A stretch of DNA of 64,000 nt. It comes from Hanleya hanleyi. Taxonomy: Eukaryota; Mollusca; Polyplacophora; Lepidopleurida; Hanleyidae. A program made the translations under genes and the position numbers. Below, piece after piece: positions 12,151 to 36,080 of this stretch (its first letter is position 1; every line of letters begins with the position of its first letter). The notes under the pieces are model-generated. The model was given only the letters and a program-made list of their open reading frames with translations. It searched no databases and was not told where the DNA came from. Location: the NCBI GenBank assembly GCA_036873755.1, contig JAVTVY010010452.1:310001-374000 (forward strand). The letters are read 5' to 3'.

Positions 12151-12184
12151 GGTCAGTACGTGAATGGTACCAGATTTCACTGTC

Positions 12185-12198: not shown

Positions 12199-12221
12199 GA
12201 GAACCCCGTGAGATCAAAGGA

Positions 12222-12725: not shown

Positions 12726-12770
12726 GCTTGCTCCAATGTCGAACGGTGAATGACACACACTCTGTCTGTC

Positions 12771-12864: not shown

Positions 12865-12870
12865 CCACTG

Positions 12871-18265: not shown

Positions 18266-18353
18266 CCTAACTGAGGAACGACCTGACCAGCCTACCTGAG
18301 GAGTTACCTGACCAGTAGGCGATACCAGTGGAGCCTGAAGCCAGACCGATAGC

Positions 18354-21300: not shown

Positions 21301-22660
21301 CAGCGCTGGCCGCTTCAACGAACGACGTGGAAAATCGGCGGAAGAACTACGGGCAGAAGTGGTGGAGAACGGGGATTACGTGAAAGAGATGGGGTACCAG
21401 CTCATCGAAATGTGGGAGTGTGAATTTCACACCATGTGCCAGGCCCTCCCATACTTACGTCGCTTCCTTAAAGCACGAGAGTACCCCCTCAGTCGCCGGC
21501 GACTCCTAACCCAGCCACAGTTTCTCGACGCCGTTCGTTCCGGGGACCCCTACGGGTTTGTAGAAGGCGATCTGCATGTTCCCGACAACCTCAAGCCACT
21601 ATTCGCCCAGTGCCCACCCATCTTTAAAAAACACGCTGGTGAGTCGGGATGACATTGGAGACACCATGGGTGCCTATGCTGAGCAACACGAATGCCTGCC
21701 TCGTCCTCGTCGGATGCTGATCGGGAGCATGTGGGGAGAAAAAATCTTGCTGGGTACCCCGCTACTACAGTGGTACATGAGCCACGGCCTCGAAGTGACG
21801 CGAGTGTACCAAGTCCTTCAGTACGTACCGAACGACTGTTTTGCGGGGCATGCCGACATCGTCACACCTGCCCGTCGTCAAGGCGATAAAGATCCCAGTC
21901 AGGCCATTATCGGCGAATCCTGGAAACTCACGGGCAATGGCTACTATGGAAAAACGGTCACCAACCAAGACAAGCACGTCAACGTGAATATCTGCACTAC
22001 CAAACAAGCGCGCAAAAAGTTCAACTCGCCTCTGTTTCGGTCCGTGGACGTCATCGATGATGATACGTATGAAGTCAGTTCAGCCAAGAAGACCATTCGT
22101 TACAACCTTCCGCTCCAAATTGGATGTATGGTATACCAGGTGGCCAAGCTGAGGATGCTGCAATTTTTATACGATTTCATGGCGGTGTATTTCAATCCAT
22201 CAGACTGGCAACTATGGAGATAGACACAGACTCTGCCTACATGGCCGTCTCTAATTCATCAAACCCGAATTACGCACGCAGTATGAGGCGGAACGAGACC
22301 AGTGGCTACCTCGACGCGACCGTTACCAGTACGACAAGCGGACGCCAGGTCTCTTCAAGTTAGAGTGGAGTGGAGATGCCATGATCGCCCTGTCGTCCAA
22401 GACGTACTATTGTTACGGAGGTGATGGAAACAACAAGTTTAGTTGTAAAGGCTTCAACCGACGTGACCCTGCCATTGACAAAGCCCTCTACCGTGGGCGT
22501 GCTGCAAAGCCAGGCCAGTGCGAGTGGCACTAACAGAGGATTCCGGGTCGTCGACTACCAGATGCGAACGTACATCCAGAAACGAGATGCCTTCATATTT
22601 TTCTATCCGAAACGGAAAGTCCTTCCCGATGGAGTCAGTACCACCTACCTGGACTTGTGA
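18354..22660 (+). pseudogene. Protein-primed-type DNA polymerase B, multiply broken
   Basis: Replicative polymerase of the Polinton family. Visible parts in order: N-terminal region (18354-18644), an in-frame TAA (18642-18644), then 18663-19820 with a C2H2-like finger (CSQCHRVFDRSSNLHRHEKIC), exonuclease motif I (CYDFEAIL) and an acidic Glu run; a retroelement insertion at 19821-20250; exonuclease II (VFGFNSRRYDLNM) and III (YNNLDMVPF) at 20270-20920; a frame change, then polymerase motif A (DANALYLWS, near 21017-21045); a TGA near 21280; further frame changes near 21640; motif B (KLTGNGYYGKT, near 21930-21960); and motif C (IDTDSAYMA, near 22220-22245). The C-terminus ends near 22660 (YPKRKVLPDG). 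At least five breaks make it clearly non-functional. Confidence 0.92.
19821..20250 (+). mobile_element. Retroelement fragment inserted in polymerase
   Basis: Same sequence as the element at the window start, in permuted order: first the 3' tail (matches about 2273-2640), then directly an internal coding piece (matches about 2003-2095, the LVDFMTKEMITIST region). Tail joined to internal coding is what tandem, head-to-tail Penelope-like copies produce. The insertion replaces polymerase codons between exonuclease motifs I and II. Confidence 0.75.
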
Positions 22661-22743
22661 AACTATGACTTTTTATAGTACGAGTTAAACTAGTACTGTA
22701 AGAGTTAAACTAGTACTGTAAAAATTAACATACACCTGTAAAA

Positions 22744-22828
22744 GTCGGGATGGCCGAGTGGTCTAAGGCGCCAGTCCTAAGTGCTGGTCTGCGCAATGCA
22801 GGTCGTGGGTTCGAATCCTACTCCTGAC
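22744..22828 (+). tRNA. tRNA-Leu-like gene (anticodon UAA by fold)
   Basis: 85 nt fold into a class II cloverleaf: acceptor GTCGGGA/TCCTGAC (one G-U), D stem GCC/GGC, anticodon stem CCAGT/GCTGG, long variable arm (CTGC/GCAG), T arm GTGGG/CCTAC. Internal A box (TGGCCGAGTGG) and B box (GGTTCGAATCC) are intact and TTTTT (22831-22835) follows as a Pol III terminator. The anticodon loop CCTAAGT puts UAA in place but has C, not U, at position 33, which would hurt decoding; it may be a pseudogene. It sits between the converging polymerase and protease genes of Polinton 2, with no counterpart in Polinton 1. Confidence 0.8.
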
Positions 22829-22848
22829 AGTTTTTACAACTGTATTCT

Positions 22849-22983
22849 TTATAACTCTACTGTATTGTTCACATTCTTTGTACATATTCAACCATTCTTG
22901 TTCGCCTGAATATAATTGTAACTCTACTGTATTGTTCGCATTCTTTGTACATATTCTAACCATTCTTGTTCGCCTGAATATAA
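22849..22983 (+). repeat. Two direct 65-bp repeats
   Basis: Two near-identical copies containing CTCTACTGTATTGTTC and CATTCTTGTTCGCCTGAATA. They lie in the intergenic space between the tRNA and the end of the protease gene. Confidence 0.8.
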
Positions 22984-23019
22984 AAAAAGTCAAAACGTCA
23001 CTTGTGTTTTCATGAATTT

Positions 23020-23025
23020 TTTATT
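23020..23025 (-). terminator. Poly(A) signal of the late cluster
   Basis: Minus-strand AATAAA about 45 bp after the protease stop. Confidence 0.55.
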
Positions 23026-23069
23026 GAACATCAATGAACGTCAGAACAATAAGAACGCATTTAAGACAA

Positions 23070-23534
23070 CTAGAGAAATGGAGCATGCACATTAAAACGA
23101 GAGGCAGCCCAGTCGTACACTAAGACATCACGGTCTTCGGCTTGAAAATAATCATCAAACATCTGTACAATCGTTTGCATAGAATGTCCTCTACTCCGGT
23201 GAGTGAGATAAAACACACAGTACTGTCCGCATACACTACTCAAAGGTCCTTGTAACCTTTTAGTATTCCAACGCCAGAATGTAGTAGATTCGTCCATGAA
23301 CTGGGTCAAATCGAGATGCACGGGTGCAAGTCCGTAGGAATCAAAGTATTCTCCTTGGCCCAGGGCGTCCACGTATACAGCCACCCAATGTTCACCCGGT
23401 CGAGTACCAGGATCTGTATTCAGAATGTAGGCCGCATGAGTGGATGGGGTGGTAAAGACATTGCGTGGAAACACACCTCGAAAGGGTACCCGGGGATCCC
23501 GCTGAAGTATGGCCATGAGCTGCTCTGTATCCAT
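23070..23534 (-). CDS. Adenain-like cysteine protease, intact
   Basis: 154 aa from MDTEQLMAIL; a longer frame to 23597 enters the capsid gene and is not used in my view. Catalytic His in GEHWVAVY, acidic partner in EYFDSYG, an oxyanion-type Gln and nucleophilic Cys in SSVCGQYCVFYL, and the C-terminal VLVYDWAASRFNV. Virion maturation protease of peptidase family C5. Unlike the copy at 5788-6260 it has no frame break. A poly(A) signal follows at 23020-23025. Confidence 0.88.
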   Translation of the reverse strand: MDTEQLMAILQRDPRVPFRGVFPRNVFTTPSTHAAYILNTDPGTRPGEHWVAVYVDALGQGEYFDSYGLAPVHLDLTQFMDESTTFWRWNTKRLQGPLSSVCGQYCVFYLTHRSRGHSMQTIVQMFDDYFQAEDRDVLVYDWAASRFNVHAPFL

Positions 23535-23538
23535 GACT

Positions 23539-24848
23539 CTAGCTGGCGTAGTCACACAGGACGTTTCTTTGCTGATCCACGGTGATGACGTTATCAAACT
23601 CGGCGTAGCAAATAACGTTAATGGTATGGGGTAGAGCTACCGAGAAACGCAGTTCCAACCGTAAGTTTCCTTTCTTGAGCAAGGCCAGTTGATGATCGTG
23701 TTCCAAGGTAGGGGTGAGGTCGAAGGCGAACAAAGTGTACCCACGGGCAAAGTTTCGTCGAGTGATGGTATTTCCTTCGTCCTGATTGTTTTGTCCTGTG
23801 GCTGTAAACAGGTTCAGGTAGCTCCACACATAGTGATGGTTACTAAAATCTGGTTGTAACGGCCGGGCTGGGATTTGATGTCCGGCTACGTGCAGTGCCA
23901 CAAAGTAGTTGATGTTGAAATGTTGAAAGTGGAACGGATTCTCTGTCCACTGGCCATTGAAACTGGTATTGGTGACACACGCCAGGGTAAGACGTTTAGG
24001 CAGATCCCCTAGAAATAAATTTTCACGATTGGCCATCATCGTACCTGCTGGCACAGAGAACACATTGGTCTGTACGCGTCGGACGGAGTACAGGGCTGGT
24101 TTTTTCGATAAGGCTTCCATGTGACTCACCAACACCCCCTGTTGCAAATCCACCGTACGGACAAACAGGGCTGCATCTTCTATGATGATCTTGTAATGGG
24201 CGGGATCTCCACCGGCCATCAAGGCGAAAGTGGGTGGGGAACGGATCAACTTGATCTTGATGGATACGCCGTTCATCATGTAGCGGTCTTGCAGGAACAG
24301 ATCGGCGTGCAGTCGTCCCATCATATCGACGGACCGGCTACCGGCTGTAAACTGTCTGCGATGGCCGAACCCGGCATTGGCAAGGGTGGTCGCATTCATT
24401 GCTCCGGGTGTATCTCTGTAGCACAGTGGGACTACAAGTGTGTTTTTTTGGCATCTTCTCCGTACGACAACAGCGTCTCGATGTAGGCTCGGTACGGGTA
24501 CGTATTGGTGGACGAACTGATGAGTTTATCGTTCAGACTGATATCCACCTGTTGGAACATTGAGTGCAGCCAGAGACTCACCGGGGTTACGACCGCATCG
24601 GCCGCGATGTCCGTCCCGTCTCCGTTCACCACTTTGGCTTTCACGTAAAAGTACGTGTGAGCTAAATCCAGGTAGGCAGTATCTTTGTTTTCAATGGTAA
24701 ATTCCAGCGGTCCCGTTCCCGTCAGGCTAGCCAGGGACCGATGTTCTACCCAACGACCCTCGGCGACACTGGTCTGTGTGGAGGGAATAGTCCACAAATC
24801 CAATTCACTGTTGGTAGACGGACACGACTCGGAATGAATGAATGTCAT
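23539..24848 (-). pseudogene. Major capsid protein, frameshifted mid-gene
   Basis: Double-jelly-roll capsid protein, homologous end to end to 6262-7574. The 5' part (24848-24432) starts MTFIHSESCPSTNSELDLWT and includes TYPYRAYIETLLSYG. The remainder (24399-23539) is in another frame. The break is near 24405-24435, where Polinton 1 keeps an open frame. The T-run TGTTTTTTTGG near 24441 is a plausible slippage site. The gene is preceded directly by the core-like gene (the stop and the ATG region adjoin at 24848). Confidence 0.88.
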
Positions 24849-25238
24849 TATGCGAAGATGTCTCTCTTCTTCTTCTTCTTCTGGGGTGTGCGTCGTCGGT
24901 GTGTTGGCTGTCGAATGACTCTCCCCTGTGACGGGGGTTGTCTTTTAAGGCCTTTGGCCACCAAGACGCTGCCTGCTTCTTTAGCCCCTCGTTTCAAGAC
25001 TTGTCGGGGTGCCGACCCACTCAAGACATCACCGGCCACTTGCAGTCCACTGCGTACCGCTTGTTTGCCCACCGCTTTTACGCCACGTGTCACCAGAGGT
25101 AAGAACCTTTTGACGATGCTTCCCAGTATGTTTCCCAGCCCGTGACCTCGTTGCATGCGTGCACCGCTAAAGACCGGACCTCCACCTCCCGTTTGTTTCT
25201 TGTAATAGTCGGCATAGCTGGCCGTATGGCACGTACAT
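24848..25238 (-). pseudogene. Core-like virion protein, broken near the start
   Basis: Homologue of 7578-7982. The main frame from MQRGHGLGNILGSIV (25156) is intact to a Lys-rich end (KKKKKKRDIFA). The N-terminal 30 codons before it are in another frame because about ten bases are missing after the ATG (25236-25238). The ATG overlaps the penton stop as TAATG, as in Polinton 1. Use of the internal Met could still give a shorter product. Confidence 0.72.
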
Positions 25239-26017
25239 TATACGAAGTGGGGAGAACGTGCTTGGCGGAAATGAAGTGTCAGCACCACTTTCCCTCGTTC
25301 GAATGCCACCGGGCGTCCCGTGTCATCTCTTATATCCACCGTGATCGTGTTGATATCGGTGTGTCGGACGGGTAGGTGGTTGAAACTCTGGGTGACTTGA
25401 TCTCCATACTTCTTTCTAATGGGGACCACCCGTAACAGAGGTGTGTTGACATCTCCCACAATGTGGTTGTCGACCACGTCCGAGTAGACGTAGAGTCCGT
25501 ACATACCCACTTTCATATCCATCGCAATGTCGCCTCTGTCGGTGGTTGGGCCCGGGTAGACGGAATAAGGGAGACCTAACATTTGCTGTAGGCTAGGACT
25601 GAGTTCGACACTCACGTTGGGGCTGAGACGGATACAGACCGTGTCGTTGTGTGTGTTGTAATCGAACTCCACATGATTCTTGAAGGGATAGGATTTGATG
25701 GGTTTTGAATTATTCGTGACCACCCGTAGAGACTTATAATGCATCAGTGTTCTCAAGCCCTCCATGAACTCTTTGGGGGTATCGTATTGGCCTCCGGGTA
25801 GGGTCAGCCGGGTTACTTTGCCTTGGTAGGTCACCTCGTACCACACGTCCTTGTTTCGCACGTTGTACCACGAGTAAGTGTATTGAATATCCACGAGTCC
25901 GCATTCCCACCGTCCAGGTAAATGCAACGGTTGCGGTAACTGGGTCACGTACTTGGCCAAGGTGTTGTCAGGAAACACATCGAGCGAACTGTTACTGGGC
26001 AACGTGAGGTAAAACAT
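25238..26017 (-). CDS. Penton-like minor capsid protein
   Basis: An intact 259-aa frame from MFYLTLPSNSSLDV (ATG at 26015-26017). An in-frame upstream ATG at 26176 lies inside the preceding gene and is not preferred. Same blocks as the Polinton 1 copy: PGRWECGLVDIQY, LTLPGGQYDTPKEFM and the C-terminal DDTGRPVAFERGKVVLTLHF. Its ATG confirms that ATA at 8768-8770 is a lost start. Confidence 0.88.
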   Translation of the reverse strand: MFYLTLPSNSSLDVFPDNTLAKYVTQLPQPLHLPGRWECGLVDIQYTYSWYNVRNKDVWYEVTYQGKVTRLTLPGGQYDTPKEFMEGLRTLMHYKSLRVVTNNSKPIKSYPFKNHVEFDYNTHNDTVCIRLSPNVSVELSPSLQQMLGLPYSVYPGPTTDRGDIAMDMKVGMYGLYVYSDVVDNHIVGDVNTPLLRVVPIRKKYGDQVTQSFNHLPVRHTDINTITVDIRDDTGRPVAFERGKVVLTLHFRQARSPHFV

Positions 26018-26048
26018 GACGACAGCTTTTCTGCTTTCGCTCCCGGCT

Positions 26049-26755
26049 TTAATAGGGTTCCCAGGTCTTGGGGGGTTGTAGCTGCCGTCGTGATCGGCGC
26101 GGTGTGGCGGAATAGGGGTGAAAAGAACGTCCCCGCCGTGAGGGTGTTTTGGGAGGGGTCTGCGCTTCCCACTCACGTTCCCAGGTATGGGGGAATCGAG
26201 AGGGTGCTTACATCCAGGTCCAGCGTTGAGGATTCCCTACCAATTCTCGATGGACGTGTGTGTCTTTCAACGCCCTAGCAAAGGCTTCCCATCCCGGTGG
26301 ATTAGAGTGTTTGCGAGCACGCACCGTATCGTTGATCAGATCGGTGATATGAGATCCCGGGACCACTTGGTTTCGAATAAGCAGCTGCCCCTGGTCGGTC
26401 CAACCCATATTAGGATTCTGTTTCACCCGGTCCAACAATAAACGAGCCTTGGTCTTGAACGCCTTAGGGACACTGGCCAACACTTCATCTTCGAGCTGAG
26501 GTGAGGAGGAGGAGGAGGAGGAGGAGGGCGGTGGTGGTGGTGGTGGTAGTGGTGATGGTGTTGAACCACCCCTATATTGATCCATTAACGTCTTGTACCG
26601 GTTCAGCGTCTGATGGTAATCGGCGTTGAAGTATGCTATTCATCTCTTCATCGAGGGACTGCAGTTGTTGTACCGTGGCAGGGACAGGGTAGGGTGATTG
26701 CAAACTTTGTAACAGTCGAGGTTCGACCAGCATCAATTTTTTTCGTATGTTGCAT
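26049..26755 (-). pseudogene. Conserved Polinton protein (289-aa family), frameshifted
   Basis: Homologue of 8804-9673. Recognisable pieces lie in different frames: LVEPRLLQSLQSPYPVP near 26700, the central domain (EDEVLASVPKAFKTK, NQVVPGSHITDLIND) at 26208-26510 and the C-terminal QPPKTWEPY just before the stop (26049). A one-base insertion after the initial Lys run and further shifts near 26580-26630 and 26200 break it. Short Glu/Ser- or Pro-coding runs replace the poly-Pro linker. Confidence 0.75.
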
Positions 26756-26756
26756 G

Positions 26757-27092
26757 TTAGCGTCCCAAGATGGACCCTACTAACGGTCCCAGGACGGAGG
26801 CTGCTAATGGCGCGAGTAGTGCCCCGAGAAATCCACATTGCTGTAGCACATGTTTCTTTTTCTTTAAACTCGTCTTCTTCACCAGCGTTCGGAGACCCGT
26901 CTTGTGTCGTTGCAATTTTCCTTTCTGCAGAGGACTGAGGGGAACATTCCCTTTTAACACATTATGAGCGACTTCACACAAGCACCATACCAATCCCGCG
27001 TCCGCCCCGCGCACCAGGGCCCGGACCACCTTCCGTGGCGCGCTGCGTAACATGCGGAGCGCCGGCGCGTGCTTCCGTATCCGCGCAGTCAT
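26757..27092 (-). CDS. Small conserved protein with hydrophobic tail
   Basis: 112 aa from MTARIRKHAPALRML; a longer frame to 27122 exists. Same layout as 9670-10011: LKGNVPLSPLQKGKLQRHK, a Lys-rich stretch, then a C-terminal segment GFLGALLAPLAASVLGPL that can span a membrane. It is undamaged, which makes it one of the few open genes of Polinton 2. The stop adjoins the next ATG (TAACATG). Confidence 0.78.
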   Translation of the reverse strand: MTARIRKHAPALRMLRSAPRKVVRALVRGADAGLVWCLCEVAHNVLKGNVPLSPLQKGKLQRHKTGLRTLVKKTSLKKKKHVLQQCGFLGALLAPLAASVLGPLVGSILGR

Positions 27093-27130
27093 GATGAGAA
27101 AGTGAATGGTTTGAAGTCCCATCTTGTTCT

Positions 27131-27136
27131 TTTATT
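27131..27136 (-). terminator. Poly(A) signal overlapping the ATPase end
   Basis: AATAAA on the minus strand; it includes codons at the stop of the ATPase frame. Confidence 0.5.
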
Positions 27137-27665
27137 TGGGTGTGTACACAGTCTGGAACTCCCCGGGGAAAATGTGGGTCCGCAATCGAAGTGCGGAAGG
27201 TGTCCCTTGTTTCAAGTCGATGAGCAGGTAGCCGTGGGCCTCCTGGGTGGCATCTTCAAAGGCTTCCCGAACAAAGACCGGGTTTTTAGGGTACATCGGT
27301 TTCGCCAGGTGCATAATTTGTGACGCGTCTGTGGGGTTTTTGAACAACACCACATACTGTGCATTCAAAGTGCTGTTCCTGTGCTCGGGTGACTCGACTA
27401 TCCGTTTCGGCCATCAGATCATCCACGACCACCAACGTGTCTTCTGGGGTATCCTCTGGGGTAATCCTTCCACCAAGGTGAGTCCAGGCCTCCGTGCCAG
27501 TTCCTCGTAGGCAGGCTGCCAAGCTCCATAACACCAAAGGATGCGGGCCACGGGAGGAGAAATGAGGTCTGGCTCCGCGATGAGACGTTGAACGAAGTGT
27601 GTTTTTCCCGAGCCGGTCGGTCCAGCGATGAGACACGTGAAAGGATGCTGCCACCATGGATCCAT
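27132..27665 (-). pseudogene. Packaging ATPase with internal deletion
   Basis: Starts MDPWWQHPFTCLIAGPTGSGKT with Walker A intact. The frame is lost near 27420. Walker B (TLVVVDDLMAETDSRVT) is in another frame, and after RVT about 75 bp corresponding to the sensor/arginine-finger side are missing before HRNSTLNAQYVVLFKNP. The C-terminal part (27368-27132) is open again. Non-functional; compare the intact 10162-10770. Confidence 0.85.
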
Positions 27666-27694
27666 GCAGTTATTTGGTGTTTTGGGCTAAGCGT

Positions 27695-28145
27695 TCAGAG
27701 GCCCACCACCATTGTTGCGGATCCCACCGTGGATCGTAGTCCGGAGGATTCCGTTGCCGTGGTAATCGCGGTACAAGACCTATTACAGGATATGTCTCCC
27801 TGCTCCCGGCTCCCGGAGCTCCCCTCGTGATGGGTGTACTCTTCGTGAGTAGAGTAGTGGTTGCGATGATCGGTGTTACCCTGCTGAACGGAGGTGGTTC
27901 CCTGGTTGGTAATCATGGTACAAGACCTTTTACAGGATATGTTTCCCTGCTCTCGGCTCCCGGAGCTCCCCTCGTGATGGATGTACTCTTCGTGGGTAGA
28001 GTAGTGGTTGCGATGATCGGTGGTACCCTGCTGAACGGAGGTGTCAGTTTGACTTTACTGAAGACCCTTCTTCAGGAGGTGAGTAGAGCGTACGGCGCAC
28101 TTGATGTTGCGTTCCGTCACATCGATGGGCGCCCGTTGGATACTG
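27695..28145 (-). pseudogene. Repeat-containing ORF in place of the stalk protein
   Basis: Two copies of a 147-bp (49-codon) unit, about 27772-27916 and 27919-28063, read in one frame with DHRNHYSTHEEY and HHEGSSGSREQGDISC. It lies where Polinton 1 has the membrane/Thr-rich protein, between integrase and ATPase, but no membrane segment is visible. The unit length is a multiple of three and the frame is kept, which suggests it was coding when it expanded. Confidence 0.45.
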
Positions 28146-28806
28146 CGATGATAGGCTCGATTTACCGTCGGGTGTTTTTGGCTGTAAAATACTTGTACAT
28201 CCGACCTTTCAAGGTCCGATTGAACCGTTCCACCACAGAGGCTTTGGTTTCGTTGTACGTATGGAAGAAAAACACCTGTTTCTTGAGAAAGGCTTGAAAA
28301 TGTCGATTGAGAAATTCTGTGCCTTCATCCGTTTGCAAATAGAGGGGTTTGCGACCGGTCTTGAAAATCTGCCGGAACGCCTGTACAAGATTCTCCCCTG
28401 TTTTGGTCCGGATGGGTACCACCCATGCGACCTTGGATAAAATATCGATACAGGTCAACATGTACCGATGTCCATCATTGTGGGCAGCAAATCGACTCAG
28501 ATCGACCAAATCTGCCTGCCATTGTGCGTCTATGCCTCCTACGATGACTCGGTTACGGCGAAAATGCCGTCGGACTGCTCGATGTAAGCTATAAGTGTCT
28601 TGGGTTTTTAACCATTCGCGAACTTCAGCTCGACTGATGCCTTGGGACTGCGCAGCTCGAGTGAGCACTCCCACAGCCCTATAAGCGGCTGGACTGTCTG
28701 GACTGTAATACAATTCCATTAACACCTTATCCACATGTTTTGTACCCTTATCCTGCCGAGTCGCCCTACGGGTCTCCCGCCGGGTGTCCCACCGGGTTCG
28801 CTTCAT
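28146..28806 (-). pseudogene. Integrase, N-terminal and catalytic part, C-terminus lost
   Basis: Starts MKRTRWDTRRETRRATR (28806), very basic. The catalytic triad is complete: Asp in WQADLVD, Asp in LQTDEGTEF and Glu in SVVERFNR with 33 residues between the last two. Soon after KNTRR a stop follows; beyond it, in another frame, AYHRSIQRAP can be read, so about 12 codons were deleted and the SH3/chromo-like C-terminus is gone. Together with 11259-11845 the two copies show which parts each has lost. Confidence 0.85.
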
Positions 28807-28837
28807 GATGCGACTGACGCTCTAGACTGTGTGGCCC

Positions 28838-29523
28838 CTATAAATATAGTACCTTATCGACAATGGGGACTACTTGTTCCAAAGCCGTCCATAGATCGGG
28901 GTCCAGGGTAAAACCACCTTCGTTCAGACAGAGGAGTCCAGCGAAAAAGGAACCGCGGAAAATGTAGACGTCGTCACACAGGTGAATGCTATCGCCGTCG
29001 AGGTCACCCAACAACACCCGTTTCAAGTAGTCCATCCTTCCTGTGACAAAGAGACGTGCGCTTTGGGTTCAGGCGTACACCAACACCTAAGTCCCCTATC
29101 GATGAGGTCCACTCGTTTGGAGTACAACAATAGGGTGCAGCCAGGTGTAAGCCTCCGGGTAGCCACAGTCCCTTCTTTCACCTCGGTGTGTTGTAAGTCA
29201 TCCACCTCGGGGAGTACATCTTTCAGTGCCATCCATAAGGGTGGGCAGAGTGTGATATGGGTACCCCCACACTGTTCCAACCGGGGAAAAAAGGAATCCT
29301 CTCCAGCAGTGCGTATGTGCACACCGACTTCCACGTGCATGAAATCCATTTCGGGCTCTTTTCCCTGTAACAACCGTGTCAATAGAGTCCAGCCTGATAG
29401 CGATAACAAAATCTTCACCTTCTGCAGTGCGTCTTGGACTAGCTCCAGGTGATCATCATTGACGATGAGGTAGACGTCGGACGTCAGTTGGAATAACGCA
29501 AGCTCTGTGCCGTTCGCTGCCAT
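28838..29523 (-). pseudogene. Two-module protein, one frameshift
   Basis: Start MAANGTELALFQLTSDVYLI (29523), just below a TATATAGACAG-type TATA near 29556-29564. Two copies of the recurrent module: the first (LTSDVYLIVNDDHLELV, GWTLLTRLLQGKEP, CPPLWMALKDVLPEVDDL) and the second (LTPGCTLLLYSKRVDLI, LSQEGWT, then in the other frame LKRVLLGDLDGDSIHLC, FTLDPDLWTALEQVVPIVD). The frame changes near 29030. The second module is the closest relative of genes A and B of Polinton 1. Function unknown. Confidence 0.65.
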
Positions 29524-29579
29524 GGTGGTGAATGAAAAGAAACGGCTAGAGAGGTCTGTCTATATAGAGTAGTACAGGT

Positions 29580-29895
29580 TAAGGGACAATAGGGCTCGAA
29601 ATTCACTTGTACACAGTGTGAGTCAATAGTTGCTGCGCATTGCCCCGCAAGGTCAATAGGACTCGAAATGCGCTTTTATACTACTCCATGTGAAGACGAA
29701 TAGTCCTCTTGGTATAATTAGTCCGTGTCCGTACACGTTATACCTTTTTCCGTTCACCTTCGTGAAAGTCCGTGATCATTCGGTGGTGTAATGTTATTGG
29801 GGTAGGAATTCATTTAACCTAGGATATTTGGTATACGCACCTTGGTCCAAAAAATGGGATTCTGGCGTTCACCCAGCAAGGATGTAGCCAACCCT
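29580..29895. other. Intergenic DNA, no gene seen
   Basis: Contains two copies of AATAGG(G/A)CTCGAAAT about 60 bp apart and a minus-strand TATAAAAG near 29668-29675. No coding signal. Confidence 0.4.
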
Positions 29896-30167
29896 TTGGA
29901 CCAATGAACGTCCATTATTTCAACCAATGGCTAAGCCTGAACAAGAGCCAATGAGTGGGCTAAGCCGGTCTTAAACAGCCAATCGATATGATCCTGGGTT
30001 ATTGTATGGGACTTCAATTTAACCTAGGAAATTGCTATTGAAAGCTTGGTAGGATTCTAGCGTAATGGTGGGCCGGGTGCAACTACTGCATTTGGACCAA
30101 TCAGAACCCATTATTTCAACCAATGGATTTGCCAATCGATGAGGTTCGCGCCTTTTAGACAGCCAAT
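29896..30167 (+). promoter_or_regulatory. CCAAT-dense promoter region with E2F-like site
   Basis: Eight plus-strand CCAAT boxes (29901, 29924, 29948, 29979, 30097, 30120, 30132, 30163), most followed by G or C as in NF-Y sites, inside two diverged direct repeats of about 190 bp that each begin TTTAACCTAGGA. TTCGCGCC at 30145-30152 matches an E2F-type site. The block lies directly upstream of the 30273 gene. No TATA is obvious. Confidence 0.55.
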
Positions 30168-30272
30168 GGATATCCATCACATTCAGCATATCAACCCCGA
30201 GCCAGACGGACAAGAGCACATTCTATCACAATATTTCCATGTGTGAAGATCGTATTATCACCAGCAAGAAAA

Positions 30273-30623
30273 ATGAGTGGAGTTGCCAAAATGTCTACAA
30301 CAACAGGTGCGGCGAGGTGGGCCAGAGAGAGGCGAGAAAGAACAGAACTGGCGAGAGCAGTGAAAGCCTTCTGGATGGAAGAAGTGAAAAGATGGACCCG
30401 GGAAAATACCAATATGACGCCGCTAGCCCGGTCCGATTTACACCACCTCGTAACCAGAGCGCCCACGGACTTAAATGGCGAGGACTTGTTGGCCGCCTTA
30501 GAGGATGTGTTACAACAACAACACCCCCAACCAGTCGTCCCCGAGTTTATAGACGTGGACGCCCTGGAGGAAGAACGCCAGGCAACTCCCTCCCAACAAC
30601 AACAACAGCCCGGGGGCAGATAG
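30273..30623 (+). CDS. Accessory protein of unknown function (116 aa)
   Basis: Starts at MSGVAKMSTTTGAARW; the frame is open from 30243 but with no earlier ATG. A basic helical segment (WARERRERTELARAVKAFWM) is followed by an acidic half and a Gln-rich end (PSQQQQQPGGR). No domain is recognised. It is flanked by the CCAAT-dense region and, 45 bp after the stop, by a perfect histone-type stem-loop (30668-30683), so it is very likely an expressed gene. Confidence 0.6.
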   Translation: MSGVAKMSTTTGAARWARERRERTELARAVKAFWMEEVKRWTRENTNMTPLARSDLHHLVTRAPTDLNGEDLLAALEDVLQQQHPQPVVPEFIDVDALEEERQATPSQQQQQPGGR

Positions 30624-30667
30624 ACAAGCCCCCCTCCAGAGACAACTGGATAAAAAAACATCTGAAC

Positions 30668-30705
30668 GGCCCTTTTCAGGGCCAACCCAGTCCTTCGAAA
30701 GGGGA
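30668..30705 (+). terminator. Histone-type 3' stem-loop
   Basis: GGCCCT-TTTC-AGGGCC (30668-30683), a perfect 6-bp stem with the UUUC tetraloop of animal replication-dependent histone mRNAs, then AACCCA (30684-30689) and a purine-rich CGAAAGGGGA (30696-30705) at the place of the U7 snRNP target. 45 bp after the stop of the 30273 gene. No AATAAA nearby. Confidence 0.8.
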
Positions 30706-30827
30706 CCTTCTAATCTGGCACATTTCAATTCAACATCAGACTCACCATGTCAATCTCCTCTCCTCCTCTCCTCTATGCTTACCAATCTCCACCTCCTCAC
30801 TCCAAGAAAAAAAACAATTACCCTAAA

Positions 30828-30848
30828 GTCCCTTTTCAGGGCCAACCC
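30828..30848 (+). terminator. Second, decayed histone-type stem-loop
   Basis: GTCCCT-TTTC-AGGGCC followed by AACCCAGTCCTTC. It duplicates the element at 30668, but the second base pair is T-C and the purine-rich element is missing. Probably a relic of a local duplication; it serves no visible ORF. Confidence 0.6.
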
Positions 30849-31160
30849 AGTCCTTCTACCGTCCTCCATATTCGATGATGATTGCCAATCTCCAGCACCT
30901 CAAAAAATACACATTCAAATAGAGTGCATTCTATGACAATCCCAACACCTCATACCCTTCAAAGTGTACCATGACCCATGTGGTACGACCGTGTGGGCGT
31001 TTACACTCGGTTTTTTCCGGGACTACTCGGTGTATCTATTAGACTAGTATATTACTGTGTAACTTATACATTCATACTAATAGTGGGTGGTAGTGTTAGT
31101 AGGAAGTTCCCATTCACTAGGGGTGTATGCAAGGTGTAGGAGCTTGTGCTTTTTAGTTAG

Positions 31161-31204
31161 AAAGCTCCTCTTTCGGGAGGTATTGGGTGGCCCTGATAAG
31201 GGCC
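31161..31204 (-). terminator. Histone-type stem-loop plus U7-like element of RING gene 1
   Basis: Minus strand: GGCCCT-TATC-AGGGCC (31204-31189), perfect stem, then ACCCA (31188-31184), 8 bases, and CGAAAGAGGAGCTTT (31175-31161). The order stem-loop, ACCCA and purine-rich AAAGAG element is that of animal histone genes. It begins 17 bases after the stop codon at 31221. Confidence 0.85.
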
Positions 31205-31220
31205 GTACGAGTTGTAATGA

Positions 31221-31769
31221 TTACAACGATTGGAGCAGTTGTCTCTTGGCGCATAGGGGACATCTCAGCGGGACGAGTGCACACGGAACGGGTATGCAAC
31301 ATGGTGGACTTGCTCTCCCTGCAAGTTTGGTGATACAGCAGGCACACAACGCCTGGTGTCCACAGGGAAATAAGGCGAATTTGGCGTAGTGGGTAAAACA
31401 TTTGACACATGGTAATTGCTTTACCACCCCCAGTGTTGTGTCCCTCTGCAGTCGTGTTATTTCCGTGCAGTAGTCGTCAAGATATTGCTGCTGTTGCTCC
31501 TGCTGCGGCACTTTCGTCAAATGACCCTCTACCGTCTGTTCTTTGTCTTCTTCTTTTACTTCTTCTTCTCTCAACAGATTGTCTATAATCTCCTCCAGCC
31601 AACCCTCGTTGGTACTATTGTCTTGTGTAGTCACTTGGATGTCGATGAATTCACCTGTTGTGTCGTCAAGATATTGCTGGTGTTGTTGCGAAACTTCGAT
31701 ATCGATCAATTCACCCGTTGCTTCGTCAAGATATTGCATGTTGAAGAGTACACGTCTAGCATCAGTCAT
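31221..31769 (-). CDS. RING-finger protein 1 (probable E3 ubiquitin ligase)
   Basis: 182 aa, intact, start MTDARRVLFNMQ. The N-terminal half has repeats of about 20 residues (QYLDEATGELIDIEV, QYLDDTTGEFIDIQV, a shorter third QYLDDY) separated by acidic or Gln-rich linkers. The C-terminus is a C3HC4 RING with ligands Cys121, Cys124, Cys136, His138, Cys142, Cys145, Cys170 and Cys173; the FPCGH core and C-terminal position resemble RINGs of IAP and MDM2-type proteins. Likely role: ubiquitination of host or viral targets. Its promoter is the left arm of the palindrome and its 3' end is a histone-type stem-loop. Confidence 0.8.
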   Translation of the reverse strand: MTDARRVLFNMQYLDEATGELIDIEVSQQHQQYLDDTTGEFIDIQVTTQDNSTNEGWLEEIIDNLLREEEVKEEDKEQTVEGHLTKVPQQEQQQQYLDDYCTEITRLQRDTTLGVVKQLPCVKCFTHYAKFALFPCGHQALCACCITKLAGRASPPCCIPVPCALVPLRCPLCAKRQLLQSL

Positions 31770-33030
31770 GAAGTGGTTGGCATGAATGTGTGTAGCAGAC
31801 GACCGACAGCCCGCTTTTTATTCTCTACCGTAAAGAACCCGGCTGAGGGCGCGCGGACGTCAGCGAAATCTGTCTGGACATCATGGCCAGAAAGAAAAGA
31901 CAAAATGATCTGTGCTTTCTACAAGATTTGGAAGCGGGCTAAATTTTTAATAAACACGAGTTGAGATCTAAAACAACTTTAAATTTATACCTTGGCATGT
32001 TATCGTGTAACCTGAAAATTTCATAGAGCTAACGGCTGCATAAATATATATTTTTTTCATTTTCCACGTTTCAAAAGCCCAATTTCACCTGCACGACTGT
32101 GTTAAAAGTACGGTAAACTTGAAATAAATGGACTTACGGCTCTTAAAACACTTTAGGTTTCTACCTTACCACGTTAGTGTGTCATTATAAAAAAAAATTG
32201 AGAGGTTTATAGATGAAGAAATGTGAATTTTTTATTTCCAACCCTCTAGTGTGAAAACAACCATTGACACCCATAGCTGTATTCGGTCCCATACTCTAAA
32301 CAGTTTCCATCACGCAGCGAACACGTGAACACTACATGTACAAGGGCCCGTATGTACACGGATGTAAACAAGTCCCCGGATGAATAAACAGATACATGCA
32401 TTCCTATCATTCAAAATGACCTGTACATGTAGTGTTCACGTGATCGCTGCGTGATGGAAACTGTTTAGAGTATGCGACCGAATACAGCTATGGGTATCAA
32501 TGGTTGTTTTCACACTAGAGGGATGAAAACCCAAAAATTCACATTTCTCCATCTATAAACCTCCCGATTTTTTTTACAATGACACACTAACGTGGTAAGG
32601 TAGAAACCTAAAGTGTTTTAAGAGCCGTAAGTCCATTTATTTCAAGTTAACCGTACTTTTAACACAGCCGTGCAGGTGAAATTGGGCCTTTGAAACGTGG
32701 AAAACGAAGAAAAAAATATATTTATGCAGCCGTTAGCTCTATGAAATTTTCAGGGTTACACGATAACATGCCAAGGTATAAATTTAAAGTTGTTTTAGAT
32801 CTCAACTCGTGTTTATTAAAATTTAGCCCGCATCCAAATCTTGTAGAAAGCACAGATCATTTTGTCTTTCTTTCTGGCCATGATGTCTAGACAGATTTCG
32901 CTGACGTCCACGCGCCCTCAGCCGGGTTCTCTACGGTAGAGAATAAAAAGCGGGCTGTCGGTCGTCTGCTACACACATTCATTTCAACCACATCATGGTT
33001 GCTAGACGTGCACTGTTCGACGTAATGAAC
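31738..33030. repeat. Large palindrome driving two RING genes
   Basis: Arms of about 600 bp (31738-32341 and about 32423-33030) are inverted copies with scattered differences; the central spacer of about 80 bp (32342-32422) is unpaired. Each arm includes the first codons of its RING gene, a CTACACACATTCAT start-like motif and AATAAAAAGCGGGC about 30 bp upstream (TATA-like), so the arms are matched divergent promoters. The spacer resembles right-TIR sequence (TGCATTCCTATCATTCAA, also at 35793-35810; GGATGTAAAC; CACGTGATC). Confidence 0.85.
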
Positions 33031-33685
33031 ACGACTGATGAAGCTTTGGCGAGGGAACTAAGCCATAACGCTTTGAGGGAACAGGCTGAAGCTGTGAGGG
33101 ACCAAGCCATGGCGCAGGGACTACAAGATCCTAGACTAATGCCCCCGATCAATCGAGTACTCACTCGGGAGATGGCGGGAGAATTGCAGGAACTCAGCAG
33201 ACGACAAGATATACAGATAGCCAACACTCGGGATGCGGACGACAATGATATTACAGACATAGATGAAGACGAAGAAGATGTACAGACGCCACATCGTCCA
33301 CAAATAGGGTGGTTAAACACACGCAGCATGGGCCCACCAGCAACTACAGCTGCTACCACAACGACGGCTACCACATCACCACCCGAGGGGACCCAGTTGG
33401 TACAGCTAAGACATCTTCAAGAAGTGGAAGAGGAAGAAGGCTAAACTACGACTCCGACTGGATAACGAGATATGGAAATCCACATGCACCATCTGCCAGG
33501 ACGCCGAGACGGGGTACGCCTTTTCCCCGTGTGGACACCTAGCCGTATGTGGTCCTTGTCTTCTAAGCTTCTTAACCAATGCGGAGTGCTGCGACTGCCC
33601 GGACACAGGAGACTTTCATGTGGCTTTACGGTGCCCTGTGTATCGGGGAAACGTATGTAGAGTGAAAAGAATCTACCGGTCGTAA
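32995..33685 (+). pseudogene. RING-finger protein 2, frame change before the RING
   Basis: Start MVARRALFDVMN, paralogous to RING protein 1 only in the first residues. 32995-33444 encodes 149 aa with a helical part, an acidic stretch (DADDNDITDIDEDEEDV) and a Thr-rich part. The RING lies in the next frame, open from 33410 to the stop at 33683: CTICQDAETGYAFSPCGHLA and onward, with the last CPxC read as CPVY, so the eighth ligand is Tyr. The frames overlap by 35 bases. A mutation, an intron or a frameshift event could explain it; I favour mutation. A histone-type stem-loop follows. Confidence 0.65.
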
Positions 33686-33719
33686 ACTAACTGATGACCA
33701 ACCCTCTGTACTTCCTAAC

Positions 33720-33763
33720 GCCCCTTTTCAGGGCCAACCCATACTCTCGAAAGAGGAGCTTTC
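33720..33763 (+). terminator. Histone-type stem-loop plus U7-like element of RING gene 2
   Basis: GCCCCT-TTTC-AGGGCC (33720-33735) has one C-C mismatch in the second pair, then AACCCA and CGAAAGAGGAGCTTT (33749-33763), which matches the element of RING gene 1 in 15 of 15 bases. It starts 35 bases after the stop. Confidence 0.75.
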
Positions 33764-34059
33764 TAACTAAAAAGCACAGCACCAACTCCCACACCTTCCC
33801 CTGCATTGAGTGAACACTGACACACATTAGTTGAATTTCTAATATTTATTAACAACACAGTAGAATGAACATAAGAGTTTCACCACGGTAGGCTCTTTGC
33901 GTTAAATTTTCTAATAGCGTTATACGGTGTCACCATGATGGTAGAATGAACAGAGAATGAACATAGAATGTAGGAATACGGTAATGTCTGAATGTTCAAT
34001 ATTTAGTCAACAAGACTTGTTTGAAATCATGTCTTTCTTGCCAGGTCATTTCTGAATGT
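33764..34059. other. 3' flank of the CARD gene
   Basis: No ORF. It contains the minus-strand AATAAA (33845-33850), the likely poly(A) signal of the CARD gene, and two copies of TCTGAATGTTCAATATTTAG about 60 bp apart near 33992 and 34051, plus two GTAGAATGAACA copies. Confidence 0.5.
33845..33850 (-). terminator. Poly(A) signal of CARD gene
   Basis: Minus-strand AATAAA about 210 bp after the stop. This gene therefore uses ordinary polyadenylation, in contrast to its three stem-loop neighbours. Confidence 0.5.
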
Positions 34060-35244
34060 TCAATATTTAGCCAACAAGACTTGTTTGAACCCTTCCGTGT
34101 CTTTTTGCCCCCGGTGCACGAACATGAAGGTCGCAATCTGCTCAAGAGGAATTCTCGGTGGACAGGCCGCTTCCAATGCCTCTGCGATTTCCGTCTCGTT
34201 CATGTCGTGTAACGCCTCCGTCATCAGCGCGTCTGACGGTGCCGCCAACACCAAAGGATGCGGGCCATCCAGACACGTATGCATGTCTAACGATCCGACA
34301 CAGCCTGCACATTGTTGGATACGCTCGCCTTCAATGCGAGGTTTAAGATGATTCAGGAAGGTTTCAATGTACTTTTTATAGATATACTCAGACAGCTGGT
34401 CATGCAGAGCTTCAGAAATCATGTGTGCGAGGCGCCGAAGCTTCCGCCACGCAGGTATTTGCAGGGCGACTCCCTCGGGTAAGGGAATATGCGTAGTATC
34501 TTTCTTCAACTTCCATTTACGAATATGTACCAGCAGGTCGTTGAACATAGAACAGGTGAGGAAGACATCGTCTCCACAACAAAATTTATGTTCGATGTGC
34601 CCCTGGTTCTCAATGACCACCTCGACGACTTGACTTTGTGTGTATCTCTGTACTCTTTTCCATTGCTCAAACGTCAAGGCAATATGCTTAGGTGGTTTAT
34701 CATCCCAGGCTGATGCATTAAAGTGCACTTGCTCATCTTTCACGGTTACAGTTAAATAGGGCGTGAGCTCCCAACTGGTGATCTGGGCCGCCTGGTAGGC
34801 CTGCTGGATGATGTCATTCATCTGCTCCACAGACAAAGGGAGTAGCATCTCTTCCTCCGCTTGCTGAAGCTCTTGCTGAGGCATTATTAAAGGTGTTAGT
34901 TGGGGACGTTTGGCGGGTGGATAGGACTCTTCCGGGTCTTCCTGGGTACGTTTGCTACCTGTACTCTCTTCGGGGATGTCTATGACTAAGGTGTGTTTCT
35001 CGGGTTGAAGTAGAGAGGCTATTCCCGCATTCCCCGTCTCTCTCAGCGCCTCCAAGAAGGCCTGAAATGCTAAAGGACCTCGACGTGGTAGAGTGTCCAT
35101 GAGGGCTCTGTTTCATGCCGTATTGGTATTCTGTGCCATGATGTCATCTTCCATGTATGTAGTGATTACGTTTCTCACCAGAAGCAGATCACATAGTTCG
35201 GCCACATTCATCAGCTCACTAATGATCTGGACACGGTGCTGCAT
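34060..35244 (-). pseudogene. CARD-domain protein with recurrent module, one in-frame TGA
   Basis: The frame starts at 35244 (MQHRVQIISELMNVA) and is open to 34060 except for a TGA at 35113-35115. The first ~75 codons on both sides of the stop look like a CARD (death-fold adaptor domain): a short helical first part with LLLVRNVITTYMEDDI, then LPRRGPLAFQAFLEALRETG. A downstream ATG (35100) gives 346 aa with only the last CARD helices. A Pro/Glu-rich linker with KRTQ and PPAKRP (possible nuclear signal) follows, then the module (LTPYLTVTVKDEQVHF, LTFEQWKRVQRYTQ) and a C-terminal Cys-containing domain. CARDs act in apoptosis and innate signalling. Confidence 0.7.
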
Positions 35245-35279
35245 CAGCTTAGCTCGGCTGTGGCTGTTGGCTCAGGTAA

Positions 35280-36080
35280 GTGCTGTTCAGGCAGGTCAGG
35301 TAGCTGCGGTCAAGTAGGCAGGGAAATGAATGAAGCCATTCCATGAAAATCCCCACTTTTATACCACCCTGACAGACCCCGGATGTACAAGAACCCGGAT
35401 GTACAAGAACCCGGATGTACAAGAACCCGTATGTAATGCTACACACTACAGGTATTGCTAGAGGACCTGGATATAGGTCAATCCTAAAATACCCGGCTGT
35501 TCCCATCACTGGGAAACCCGGATGTACAAGAACCCGGCTGTACAAGAACCCGTATGGTGTGGAAAAAACCCACACTACAGGTATTGCTAGAGGACCCGGG
35601 TATAGGTCAATCCTAAAATACCCGGCTGTTCCCCCACCCGTGTGAACCCGGCTGTACAAGAACCCGTATGTACAAGAACCCGTATGGAACAACATACACA
35701 GCTAAAGGACCCAGATATAGGGCAACCCTAAAATACCCGGCTGTAAGACCCTCTACAAGGATGTAAACCCCGGATGAACAGGTCAGTACATGCATTCCTA
35801 TCATTCAATATGACCTTGAACTATCACGTGATCTCCCCGTGATGGAAAAACCCCAAATACAAGTCAGTACATGCATCCCAATCCCAGGTCACGCCCGATT
35901 CACGCAGACCGGAAGTGACGTCATACACATGCGCACTTCCCGTCATGGAAAAACCCCAGAACCACGGCATACGAAGAGGTCAAAATACACGCTTCTGATT
36001 GGCTGACGCAAAGGTCAAAGGTCACGTGATATGCAAATTTTTGAGGTCAATGGGACCCGATCTGCTCGCTGTATACTACT
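35280..36080 (-). repeat. Right terminal inverted repeat of Polinton 2
   Basis: About 800 bp. From the end inward: terminus AGTAGTATACAGCGAGC, octamer ATGCAAAT (36031-36038, 43-50 bp from the end), CACGTG E-box, a direct AGGTCA pair (AGGTCAAAGGTCA, DR1 type), a CCAAT box (inverted ATTGGCT), TGACGTCA with an adjoining CCGGAAG (ETS-like), then many copies of CCCGGATGTACAAGAACCCG-type repeats and the TATA box. Confidence 0.9.
35349..35363 (-). promoter_or_regulatory. TATA box in right TIR, CARD-gene promoter
   Basis: Minus-strand TATAAAAGTGGGGAT, identical to 18188-18202 in the left TIR. It lies about 110 bp upstream of the ATG at 35244. Confidence 0.7.

Follow-up and report, generated by a model that had tools for sequence, protein, structure and literature searches.

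Can a mobile element end the mRNAs of its own genes in the manner of histones? A stem-loop combined with a U7 target directs SLBP/U7 processing of replication-dependent histone mRNAs, which carry no poly(A) and are restricted to S phase, and to our knowledge this route of 3' end formation is thought to be reserved for histones. The 64-kb stretch of DNA analyzed here (referred to as the window) contains a Polinton/Maverick in which three accessory genes, namely BASIC, RING-A, and RING-B (the latter two being RING genes 1 and 2 of the original prediction), were proposed to have such ends. To this rule, a many-copy mobile element with the histone 3' signal on genes other than histones would form a clear exception, and a literature search found no report of histone-type 3' ends on Polinton genes.

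The element shares with known Polintons/Mavericks its TIRs, a retroviral-type integrase, an adenovirus-type protease, a packaging-ATPase fragment, PolB-like fragments, and its length of about 18 kb, whereas accessory genes with histone-type 3' ends set it apart from them (Table 1). The two TIR arms (17870-17991 and 35759-35880) are 122 nt each and 99% complementary, the integrase matches rve (PF00665) over the cut-off with an E value of 4e-10, and the protease scores 22.2 bits with PF00770 (cut-off 21.3). Among the hallmarks of Polinton membership, TIRs, a size of 15-20 kb, the rve integrase, and the adenovirus-type protease are thus present, and the packaging ATPase only weakly, as a fragment with a likeness to Adeno_IVa2 of 20 bits, under the cut-off of 21. 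The PolB region (18.4-22.6 kb) is in fragments and broken by stops in this copy; a DTDS motif was read there by eye, and in a Pfam scan of two fragments neither matched PolB. In the place of the double jelly-roll major capsid protein lie two ORFs (23539-24399 and 25238-26017) without a Pfam match.

Table 1. Features of the Polinton in the window (positions are those of the window).
Feature	Position	Strand	Remarks
Polinton/Maverick, ~18 kb	17870..35880		TIRs, integrase and protease genes
Protease gene (control gene)	23070..23534	-	PF00770; AATAAA 45 nt past stop
BASIC	30273..30623	+	116 aa, predicted to be helical; without Pfam family
BASIC stem-loop	30668..30683	+	GGCCCT-TTTC-AGGGCC, then AACCCA; RF00032 24.6 bits
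BASIC HDE-like element	30696..30703	+	CGAAAGGG; 12 nt past stem-loop
Second, degenerate stem-loop past BASIC	30828..30843	+	GTCCCT-TTTC-AGGGCC; one broken pair, no HDE
RING-A HDE-like element	31168..31175	-	CGAAAGAG; 13 nt past stem-loop
RING-A stem-loop	31189..31204	-	GGCCCT-TATC-AGGGCC, then ACCCA; RF00032 26.3 bits
RING-A	31221..31769	-	182 aa; PF13920 E 0.0019, under cut-off
Inverted-repeat region between divergent RING-A and RING-B	31767..32997		31767-31897/32867-32997 and 32051-32196/32568-32713
RING-B	32995..33685	+	149-aa ORF 32995-33444; RING domain lies in a different frame (33410-33685, stop to stop)
RING-B stem-loop	33720..33735	+	GCCCCT-TTTC-AGGGCC, then AACCCA; RF00032 21.3 bits
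RING-B HDE-like element	33748..33755	+	CGAAAGAG; 12 nt past stem-loop
CARD-like accessory gene, without stem-loop	34060..35100	-	CARD PF00619 E 0.0036, under cut-off; AATAAA 210 nt past stop

As originally predicted, stem-loops start at the 45th (BASIC), 17th (RING-A), and 35th (RING-B) base after the stop codons, ACCCA or AACCCA directly follows each of them, and two of the stems (BASIC and RING-A) are perfect over 6 bp, the third having one broken pair (C.C, pair 2). Folding energies are -11.5 kcal/mol for BASIC and -11.4 kcal/mol for RING-A, with 3 and 5 of 200 shuffles being equally good, respectively; for RING-B the canonical loop is not the predicted fold and 26 of 200 shuffles are equally good. 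Both RING-B and its loop are decayed in the window copy, the gene being split between frames, and relatives with an unbroken frame are present elsewhere in the host genome. When the entire window was scanned with cmscan (E up to 10), exactly three RF00032 matches were returned, namely the BASIC, RING-A, and RING-B loops, with E values (4227 families x 64 kb) of 0.015, 0.0036, and 0.26. All three score under the Rfam gathering score of 34, which is exceeded by RING-B relatives (up to 40.9 bits). In the covariance-model test against chance that had been proposed, the model thus picked these three loops only, rather than scoring them no better than shuffled sequence. At all three genes an HDE with the consensus CGAAAG(A/G)G lies 12-13 nt after the stem-loop, and the combination of stem-loop, ACC, and CGAAAG occurred in none of 200 order-1 resamplings of the window. 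The sequence CGAAAGAGGAGCTTT, pointed out before as common to both RING genes, extends in both as the 31-nt CGAAAGAGGAGCTTTCTAACTAAAAAGCACA. One of these two ends may have been copied from the other, as the genes also share the inverted-repeat region between them (which presumably holds both promoters), and within the window they would then not be independent. The second BASIC loop, 160 nt downstream of the first, had been overlooked.

In the host genome the observation is confirmed and proves to extend further than originally noticed. The stem-loop plus HDE pattern has 1291 matches in the 2.48-Gb genome and 0 when read backwards, and of the 30 places that come first by contig order (some assigned by eye), 26 lie behind RING-A, RING-B, or BASIC homologues (95% interval of this share 69-96%) and 4 behind histones. 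When copies were sampled by protein first, stem-loop plus HDE was present in 37/40 RING-A, 19/20 RING-B, and 20/20 BASIC copies and in 0/20 copies of the protease, so the signal is specific to a class of genes, although these counts are not independent because the copies are related. The protease served as the 3'-flank control; the integrase was not used since its window copy is shorter than most of those listed. RING-A genes that adjoin the anchor loop of another gene have a loop of their own in 10 of 10 cases (11-16 of 16 letters, 5-6 pairs).

Position and spacing are conserved as well. The distance from stop to stem-loop is nearly fixed, being 16-22 nt for RING-A (35 nt in 1 of 37; overestimated by up to 6 nt where the match ends 1-2 residues short), 22-26 nt for RING-B in 18 of 19 copies (12 nt in L146), and 52-56 nt for BASIC in 20/20. 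The HDE, CGAAAG(A/G)G or a variant with one letter changed, is found at 11-14 nt: at 12-14 nt in 37/40 RING-A copies, at 12 nt in 20/20 RING-B relatives (with 7/8 letters or better), and at 13 nt in 20/20 BASIC relatives. ACCCA follows the loop in 31 of 37 RING-A copies, and the first BASIC loop is followed by AACCA, AACCC, or AGCCA in 20/20. For loop and identity counts, L083, L109, and L115 were left out of the 40 RING-A copies (n=37).

It might be argued that these ends are neutral remnants of a recently captured histone gene end, kept without selection, since they are identical in sequence to host histone ends and many copies are near-identical. Several results make this highly improbable. 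The signal was kept in 76 of 80 copies, across RING-A proteins that are 50-99% identical and with flanks that have diverged: among 26 RING-A copies no more than 90% identical to the window protein, mean pairwise identity is 0.83 for the stem-loop, 0.88 for ACCCA, and 0.91 for the HDE, compared with 0.73-0.74 between the elements and just after them, 0.55 just upstream, and 0.29-0.36 further downstream. Moreover, the stems covary. Two-sided changes are seen in RING-A (pair 3 from C-G to T-A in 7 of 37 loops), in RING-B (GGCTCT/AGAGCC in 6 copies), in the second BASIC loop (GGTCCT/AGGACC and AGTCCT/AGGACT), and in L041 (AGTTCT/AGAATT, six pairs including one G-U); L041, L055, and L064, whose changed-stem loops were missed by the pattern, had been added to the covariation set by hand. 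Not all six pairs are kept in 16 of the 37 sampled RING-A loops. A neutral remnant would also have to account for a signal found on three gene families and absent from the protease.

The accessory signals are identical in sequence to those of the host. The sampled host H2A, H4, and H2B (L061), H3 (L035, L037, and L046), and H1 (L002) genes have the same stem-loop and HDE arrangement, with an HDE spacing of 11-12 nt and AACCA or ACCCA after the loop; all five types have in their loops the same 16 nt as BASIC, and tails of the form CTTCTAACT..GCACA and variants are common to both groups. With metazoan replication-dependent histone 3' ends in general, the Polinton genes share the 16-nt stem-loop, ACCCA, the spacing of 11-13 nt, the AAAGAG purine core, and a short distance from the stop. 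They differ in being accessory genes of a virus-like transposon and not histones, and BASIC differs further in its extra loops: some copies have tandem first loops, and a second loop lies about 145 nt further on. According to PMC7026596, the AAAGAG core pairs with CUCUUU of U7.

Histone-type ends are also found in the host genome on a tandem gene family unrelated to these genes. By its example, the accessory genes could themselves be host genes with such ends and be located near Polintons by coincidence, a reading to which we give next to no weight: the window genes sit between the TIRs of the element, the order CARD, RING-B, RING-A, BASIC, integrase, ATPase, capsid region, and protease recurs in another contig (C2062), and at least 16 further RING-A copies have a same-strand integrase match 0.49-3.06 kb away (by eye).

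Alternatively, the hairpins could serve as another kind of 3' signal (directing polyadenylation, terminating transcription, or blocking an exonuclease) and resemble those of histones by convergence. Some large DNA viruses have hairpin 3' signals, including mimiviruses, in which the hairpin marks the mRNA 3' end, as the loops would do here, and directs polyadenylation; mimivirus hairpin-ended mRNAs are polyadenylated, whereas the Polinton accessory mRNAs are predicted to lack poly(A). The second BASIC loops, which are without an HDE in 20/20 sampled relatives (194-203 nt past the stop), would fit such a role. However, we regard it as very unlikely, considering that the first loop, ACCCA/AACCA, the 11-13 nt spacing, the HDE, and the tail are all common to the sampled host histones, and a shared loop sequence, spacing, HDE, and tail would not be expected if only a bare hairpin had arisen by convergence.

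We also searched for the host U7. A pattern search of the genome gave 10 matches versus 5 in the control, none of them U7-like, and the best RF00066 score was 27.1 bits (cut-off 34) among the 65 of 530,699 first-look candidates that were scored; at E up to 10, 12 of 14 control genomes likewise give matches in this search. For six weak U7 matches the duplex energy was calculated as well; since the search favours the CUCUUU core, their pairing is no independent evidence. Among viral contigs, a first scan with a histone-loop pattern had 0 matches and a second had 4, which is near chance by a rough estimate; a scan with an integrase pattern found no match.

AATAAA signals had been noted for the virion-cluster genes and the CARD gene. 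This holds only in part: the protease and CARD genes have them, but 8 of the 13 other Polinton ORFs scanned are without any of the four hexamers searched; the five with AATAAA, ATTAAA, or AGTAAA within 400 nt past the stop also include an ATPase-region ORF (AATAAA, 150 nt), ORF 26208 (ATTAAA, 155 nt), and the integrase (AGTAAA, 103 nt). No poly(A) hexamer was found within 400 nt downstream of BASIC, RING-A, or RING-B in the window. In other copies, the loop could be one of two alternative ends, with many copies polyadenylated at an AATAAA shortly past the HDE. Consistent with this, among copies collected by motif first (45 rows, 4 of them duplicates), 13 have AATAAA or ATTAAA within 260 nt past the stop (8/14 RING-A, 5/16 BASIC, and 0/15 RING-B), and in RING-A the first hexamer lies at 72-84 nt, just beyond the HDE; given a RING-A lineage with AATAAA in this position, some copies may use poly(A). 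Human histone pre-mRNA can likewise be polyadenylated if inefficiently processed at the normal site, according to PMC6303110. However, in the protein-first samples a hexamer within 200 nt occurs in only 5 of 80 accessory copies versus 19 of 20 protease copies, and we consider widespread dual use unlikely.

Taken together, the matching host histones, the retention of the signal in 76/80 accessory versus 0/20 protease copies, and the covarying stems support the interpretation of histone-type 3' processing, as far as sequence can tell. Thus, this Polinton family very probably has genuine replication-dependent-histone-type 3' signals on three accessory genes, whose mRNAs would be processed by SLBP/U7 and made in S phase; since both stem-loop and downstream signal match those of host histone genes, these mRNAs are probably without poly(A) and tied to replication. 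We infer that host SLBP would bind the stem-loop and host U7 snRNP would pair with CGAAAG(A/G)G 11-13 nt downstream of it, that the pre-mRNA would be cut a few nt past the stem, at ACCCA/AACCA, and that the mature mRNA would end in the stem-loop. The mRNAs of CARD and of the protease gene that closes the virion cluster would be polyadenylated in the ordinary way, and a single element would produce two mRNA classes, given the ordinary poly(A) signals of these two genes. As with histones, production of the two RING ubiquitin-ligase-like proteins and the small basic protein would depend on the presence of SLBP and would thus fall in S phase (or in oocytes and cleaving embryos), at a time at which the DNA of the element can be replicated; restriction to S phase is suggested by analogy with histone mRNAs.

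Processing by SLBP/U7 might be real and yet serve another use than S-phase coupling, such as storage in the germ line or early embryo (dependent on SLBP or another loop binder) or escape from poly(A) control. The loop alone is silent on when it is used, and an inherited Polinton presumably must act in the germ line; however, among the consequences of a histone-type 3' end, coupling to replication is the best known, and we consider these other uses somewhat unlikely. Under S-phase coupling, an integrated virus-like element could follow the host cell cycle and need no sensor of its own, a hypothesis that is directly testable. If the mRNAs lack poly(A), RNA-seq of poly(A)-selected libraries would also give counts that are too low for the Polinton accessory genes. 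More tentatively, with chances close to even, a large Polinton lineage may divide its transcripts into two sets by 3' end, with poly(A) for virion genes and SLBP/U7 for host-directed accessory genes, sense host replication at the RNA level, and confine its RING ligases to replicating or germ-line cells. Its loops and host histone mRNA may also compete for SLBP, considering the 1291 matches in the genome, the 26/30 share of Polinton genes, and the conserved second BASIC loops.

Window BASIC and RING-A, as well as most of the RING-B and BASIC matches listed, are single open frames, as would be expected of intronless genes. No function could be assigned to BASIC from Pfam, as no family is consistent across 11 aligned members; its AlphaFold2 model (helices 9-44, 50-62, and 69-83) has a pLDDT of 65, too weak for a fold search to be worthwhile. 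In RING-A, the Cys/His positions are invariant across an alignment of 8 sequences (A2), and a protein search found no homologue outside the host genome among 25 candidates; its nearest solved structure is HOS1 (E 0.0084). The second part of RING-B matches PF13920 with an E value of 1.8e-8, and an alignment search outside the host genome retained 4 of 7552 candidates (E 1.7e-7 to 1.8e-4, 28-35% identity), all of which bear RING-type Pfam domains.

The histone-type 3' signal carried by three accessory genes of the Polinton in the window, namely BASIC, RING-A, and RING-B, is real, host-like, gene-class-specific, and maintained. All three genes lie in the right part of the element, where BASIC and RING-A are convergent and RING-A and RING-B are divergent, the region between the latter two being an inverted repeat. 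The element also encodes an rve integrase and an adenovirus-type protease (above Pfam's cut-off), as well as a packaging-ATPase fragment slightly under the Pfam cut-off and polymerase-like fragments interrupted by stops. This copy is decayed, with a fragmented polymerase and a split RING-B. The element further contains a gene for tRNA-Leu (ARAGORN, anticodon TAA; RF00005, 49.5 bits), which separates the polymerase fragments from the protease gene, and its CARD-like accessory gene weakly matches PC4 coactivator as well (E 0.0051, under the cut-off).

Coordinates of the features described (window positions, or host-genome loci where L numbers are given)
Feature	Position	Strand	Remark
Element with long inverted-repeat arms	3237-15582		arms include 3784-5274/13542-15032 (98%)
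Polinton	17870-35880		18 kb; terminal inverted repeats
tRNA-Leu gene	22744-22829	+	
BASIC	30273-30623	+	
Fourth loop	30828-30843		one broken pair
RING-A	31221-31769	-	
RING-B	32995-33685	+	split between two frames in this copy
CARD-like gene	34060-35100	-	
Reverse transcriptase ORF	47915-50911	-	998 aa
Inverted repeat	53403-55703		arms 53403-54294/54814-55703 (97-98%)
Unrelated loop-bearing family	L001, L003, L005, L006, L012-L020, L027, L029, L030		

The stem-loops and adjoining motifs behind the three genes agree with the original prediction. They were the only matches to the histone stem-loop model RF00032 in the window (26.3, 24.6, and 21.3 bits; cmscan, E up to 10), all under the gathering score of 34. 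A fourth loop, absent from that prediction, was also found, and two of the four loops adopt the canonical fold, whereas the RING-B and fourth loops do not. None of AATAAA, ATTAAA, AGTAAA, and TATAAA occurs within 400 nt of BASIC, RING-A, or RING-B in the window. AATAAA signals had been claimed for the virion-cluster and CARD genes, which holds for CARD (at 210 nt) and the protease (at 45 nt) but not generally, as 5 of 13 other Polinton ORFs have one of the four hexamers and 8 have none.

Histone genes in the window's own assembly (2.48 Gb) have closely comparable ends. H2A, H4, and H2B of a tandem array (L061) share one 3' layout, in which GGCCCTTTTCAGGGCC is followed by AACCA, a spacer of a few nucleotides, CGAAAGAG, and a CTTCTAACT/CTTCTATCT..GCACA tail, and H3 (L035, L037, and L046) and H1 (L002) follow it with varied tails. 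The spacing between the loop and the purine-rich downstream element (HDE) is 11-12 nt in these histones versus 11-13 nt in Polinton copies picked by their loop pattern, tandem loops being left out. By eye, BASIC ends resemble those of core histones (CAAC before the loop, AACC after), and most RING ends resemble that of the one H1 gene compared (CCAAA before, ACCCA after). The HDE and its AAAGAG core are described in PMC7026596, and loops with purine-rich elements are described for clam and cnidarian histone genes in PMC6210712 and PMC5011920.

Since selecting copies by their loop was to be avoided, we searched by protein, choosing copies from the match list before the flank was seen and fetching only the ends. 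Match counts are lower bounds because 150 candidates were scored per query: at least 153 for RING-A (window query; 40 sampled, 50-99% identity, all reaching query residue 180 or beyond), 192 for RING-B (query L050; 20 sampled, 83-97%), 151 for BASIC (query L034; 20 sampled, 69-94%), and 150 for the protease control (window query; 20 sampled, 92-95%). A loop (at least 13/16 positions) plus HDE (at least 7/8) within 200 nt was present in 37/40 RING-A, 19/20 RING-B, and 20/20 BASIC copies, whereas none of the 20 protease copies had it. Among the misses, half of the loop is gone and the HDE kept in L083 (RING-A) and L132 (RING-B), the HDE of L115 (RING-A) lies only 3 nt past the loop, and L109 (RING-A) has neither. 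AATAAA or ATTAAA was found within 200 nt in 3/40 RING-A, 2/20 RING-B, and 0/20 BASIC copies, in contrast to 19/20 protease copies (42-94 nt past the stop). Fisher tests for these comparisons gave 2e-17 and 6e-15, values that overstate independence given the shared ancestry of the copies.

Processing of the accessory mRNAs by SLBP and U7 snRNP is the best reading of these ends and, on sequence grounds, probably correct; restriction of these mRNAs to S phase is a likely inference. Pattern and RF00066 searches of the host genome did not find U7 snRNA. No report of histone-type ends on genes of Polintons or other mobile elements was found in the literature searched, a scope that leaves out most subscription papers. 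Among 45 accessory copies picked by loop pattern (including 4 duplicates), AATAAA or ATTAAA lies 260 nt or less from the stop in 8/14 RING-A (L031, L032, L034, L038, L043, L048, L055, and L057), 5/16 BASIC, and 0/15 RING-B copies; thus, the absence of poly(A) signals is true of the protein-selected samples, not of every copy. In the eight RING-A copies the first hexamer comes at 72-84 nt, past the tail that follows the HDE, and some BASIC ones sit upstream of the loop (19 nt). Polyadenylation may serve such copies as a back-up or alternative way of forming the 3' end.

In the host genome, 1291 places match a combined pattern (loop, AMCCA, and CGAAAG), against 0 for its backward control. Taken in contig order, the first 30 of these, assigned partly by eye, comprise 14 BASIC, 6 RING-A, 6 RING-B, 3 H3, and 1 H1-like gene. 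Many later listed places belong to a tandem histone array (contig C3471), so these 30 do not fix the genome-wide share of Polinton genes. With RF00032, 75 of 360,901 candidates were scored, giving 74 matches (72 above cut-off), and 1 of 14 control genomes gave a match, none above cut-off. The 30 best-scoring loci include 12 RING-B, 1 RING-A-like, 1 histone H1, and 16 from an unrelated tandem gene family. Ten RING-A genes adjoining another gene's anchor loop, hence not selected by their own, all have the loop in place.

Conservation was profiled as ungapped mean pairwise identity in 26 RING-A copies whose proteins are at most 90% identical to that of the window. Values are 0.83 for the loop, 0.88 for the ACCCA region, and 0.91 for the HDE, and 0.73-0.74 between and just past these elements. 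Immediately upstream the value is 0.55, and from 30 to 110 nt downstream it is 0.29-0.36, small indels depressing the latter. Pair 3 changed from C-G to T-A on both sides in 7/37 RING-A loops and on one side in one. Other two-sided changes are GGCTCT/AGAGCC in six RING-B loops, AGTTCT/AGAATT in L041, and GGTCCT/AGGACC and AGTCCT/AGGACT in second loops. On the opposing side, sixteen of the 37 RING-A loops are short of six pairs, mostly through pair 2, implying that many copies are decaying.

Comparison with a related copy on contig C2062 shows that the accessory proteins diverge fast: identity is 37% for BASIC, 41% for RING-A, and 46% for RING-B (best stretches) and 53% for CARD, versus mostly 76-88% for the integrase and virion pieces (exceptions: 25238 ORF, 52%; 29023 ORF, 63%; 27286 frame, 45%). 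C2062 has perfect loops on all three genes, and in the 24 kb scanned loops lie only behind these. Its gene order is that of the window (CARD, RING-B, RING-A, BASIC, 29023 homologue, integrase, ATPase, capsid region, and protease). Among the matches listed, judged by eye, at least 16 RING-A copies besides the window's have a same-strand integrase at 0.49-3.06 kb, 15 of these 16 at 2.35-3.06 kb (window, 2.42 kb), and one further copy has it at 7.6 kb (C14534); the remaining contigs are not shared between the RING-A and integrase match lists or have an order misfit (C22330 and C18385).

A second loop without HDE lies 194-203 nt past the stop in 20/20 sampled BASIC copies (L147-L166), and two or three tandem first loops occur in some pattern-selected copies (L042, L052, L058, L059, and L063). 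These additional loops may act as a fail-safe or as further SLBP sites. A T-rich stretch follows the second BASIC loop in several pattern-selected copies.

The unrelated family is a second non-histone user of the histone-type signal in the host genome. It encodes a protein of ~106 aa (MENHAKLYAGLEKAESSFQRACEQI...) with a weak SKA2 match (E 0.037), and its 3' end consists of GGCTCT-TTTC-AGAGCC, ACTCA or ACCCA, and the HDE at 13 nt (15 rows counted). It forms tandem units of ~1.6 kb in L005 and L029, and a TATATAAA-like box lies upstream in L012 and L029.

Elsewhere in the window, we observed an element whose long inverted-repeat arms, built of internal repeats and including further pieces, surround ~8.3 kb, an inverted repeat with ~0.9 kb per arm, and an ORF encoding both a reverse transcriptase and an RNase H domain.
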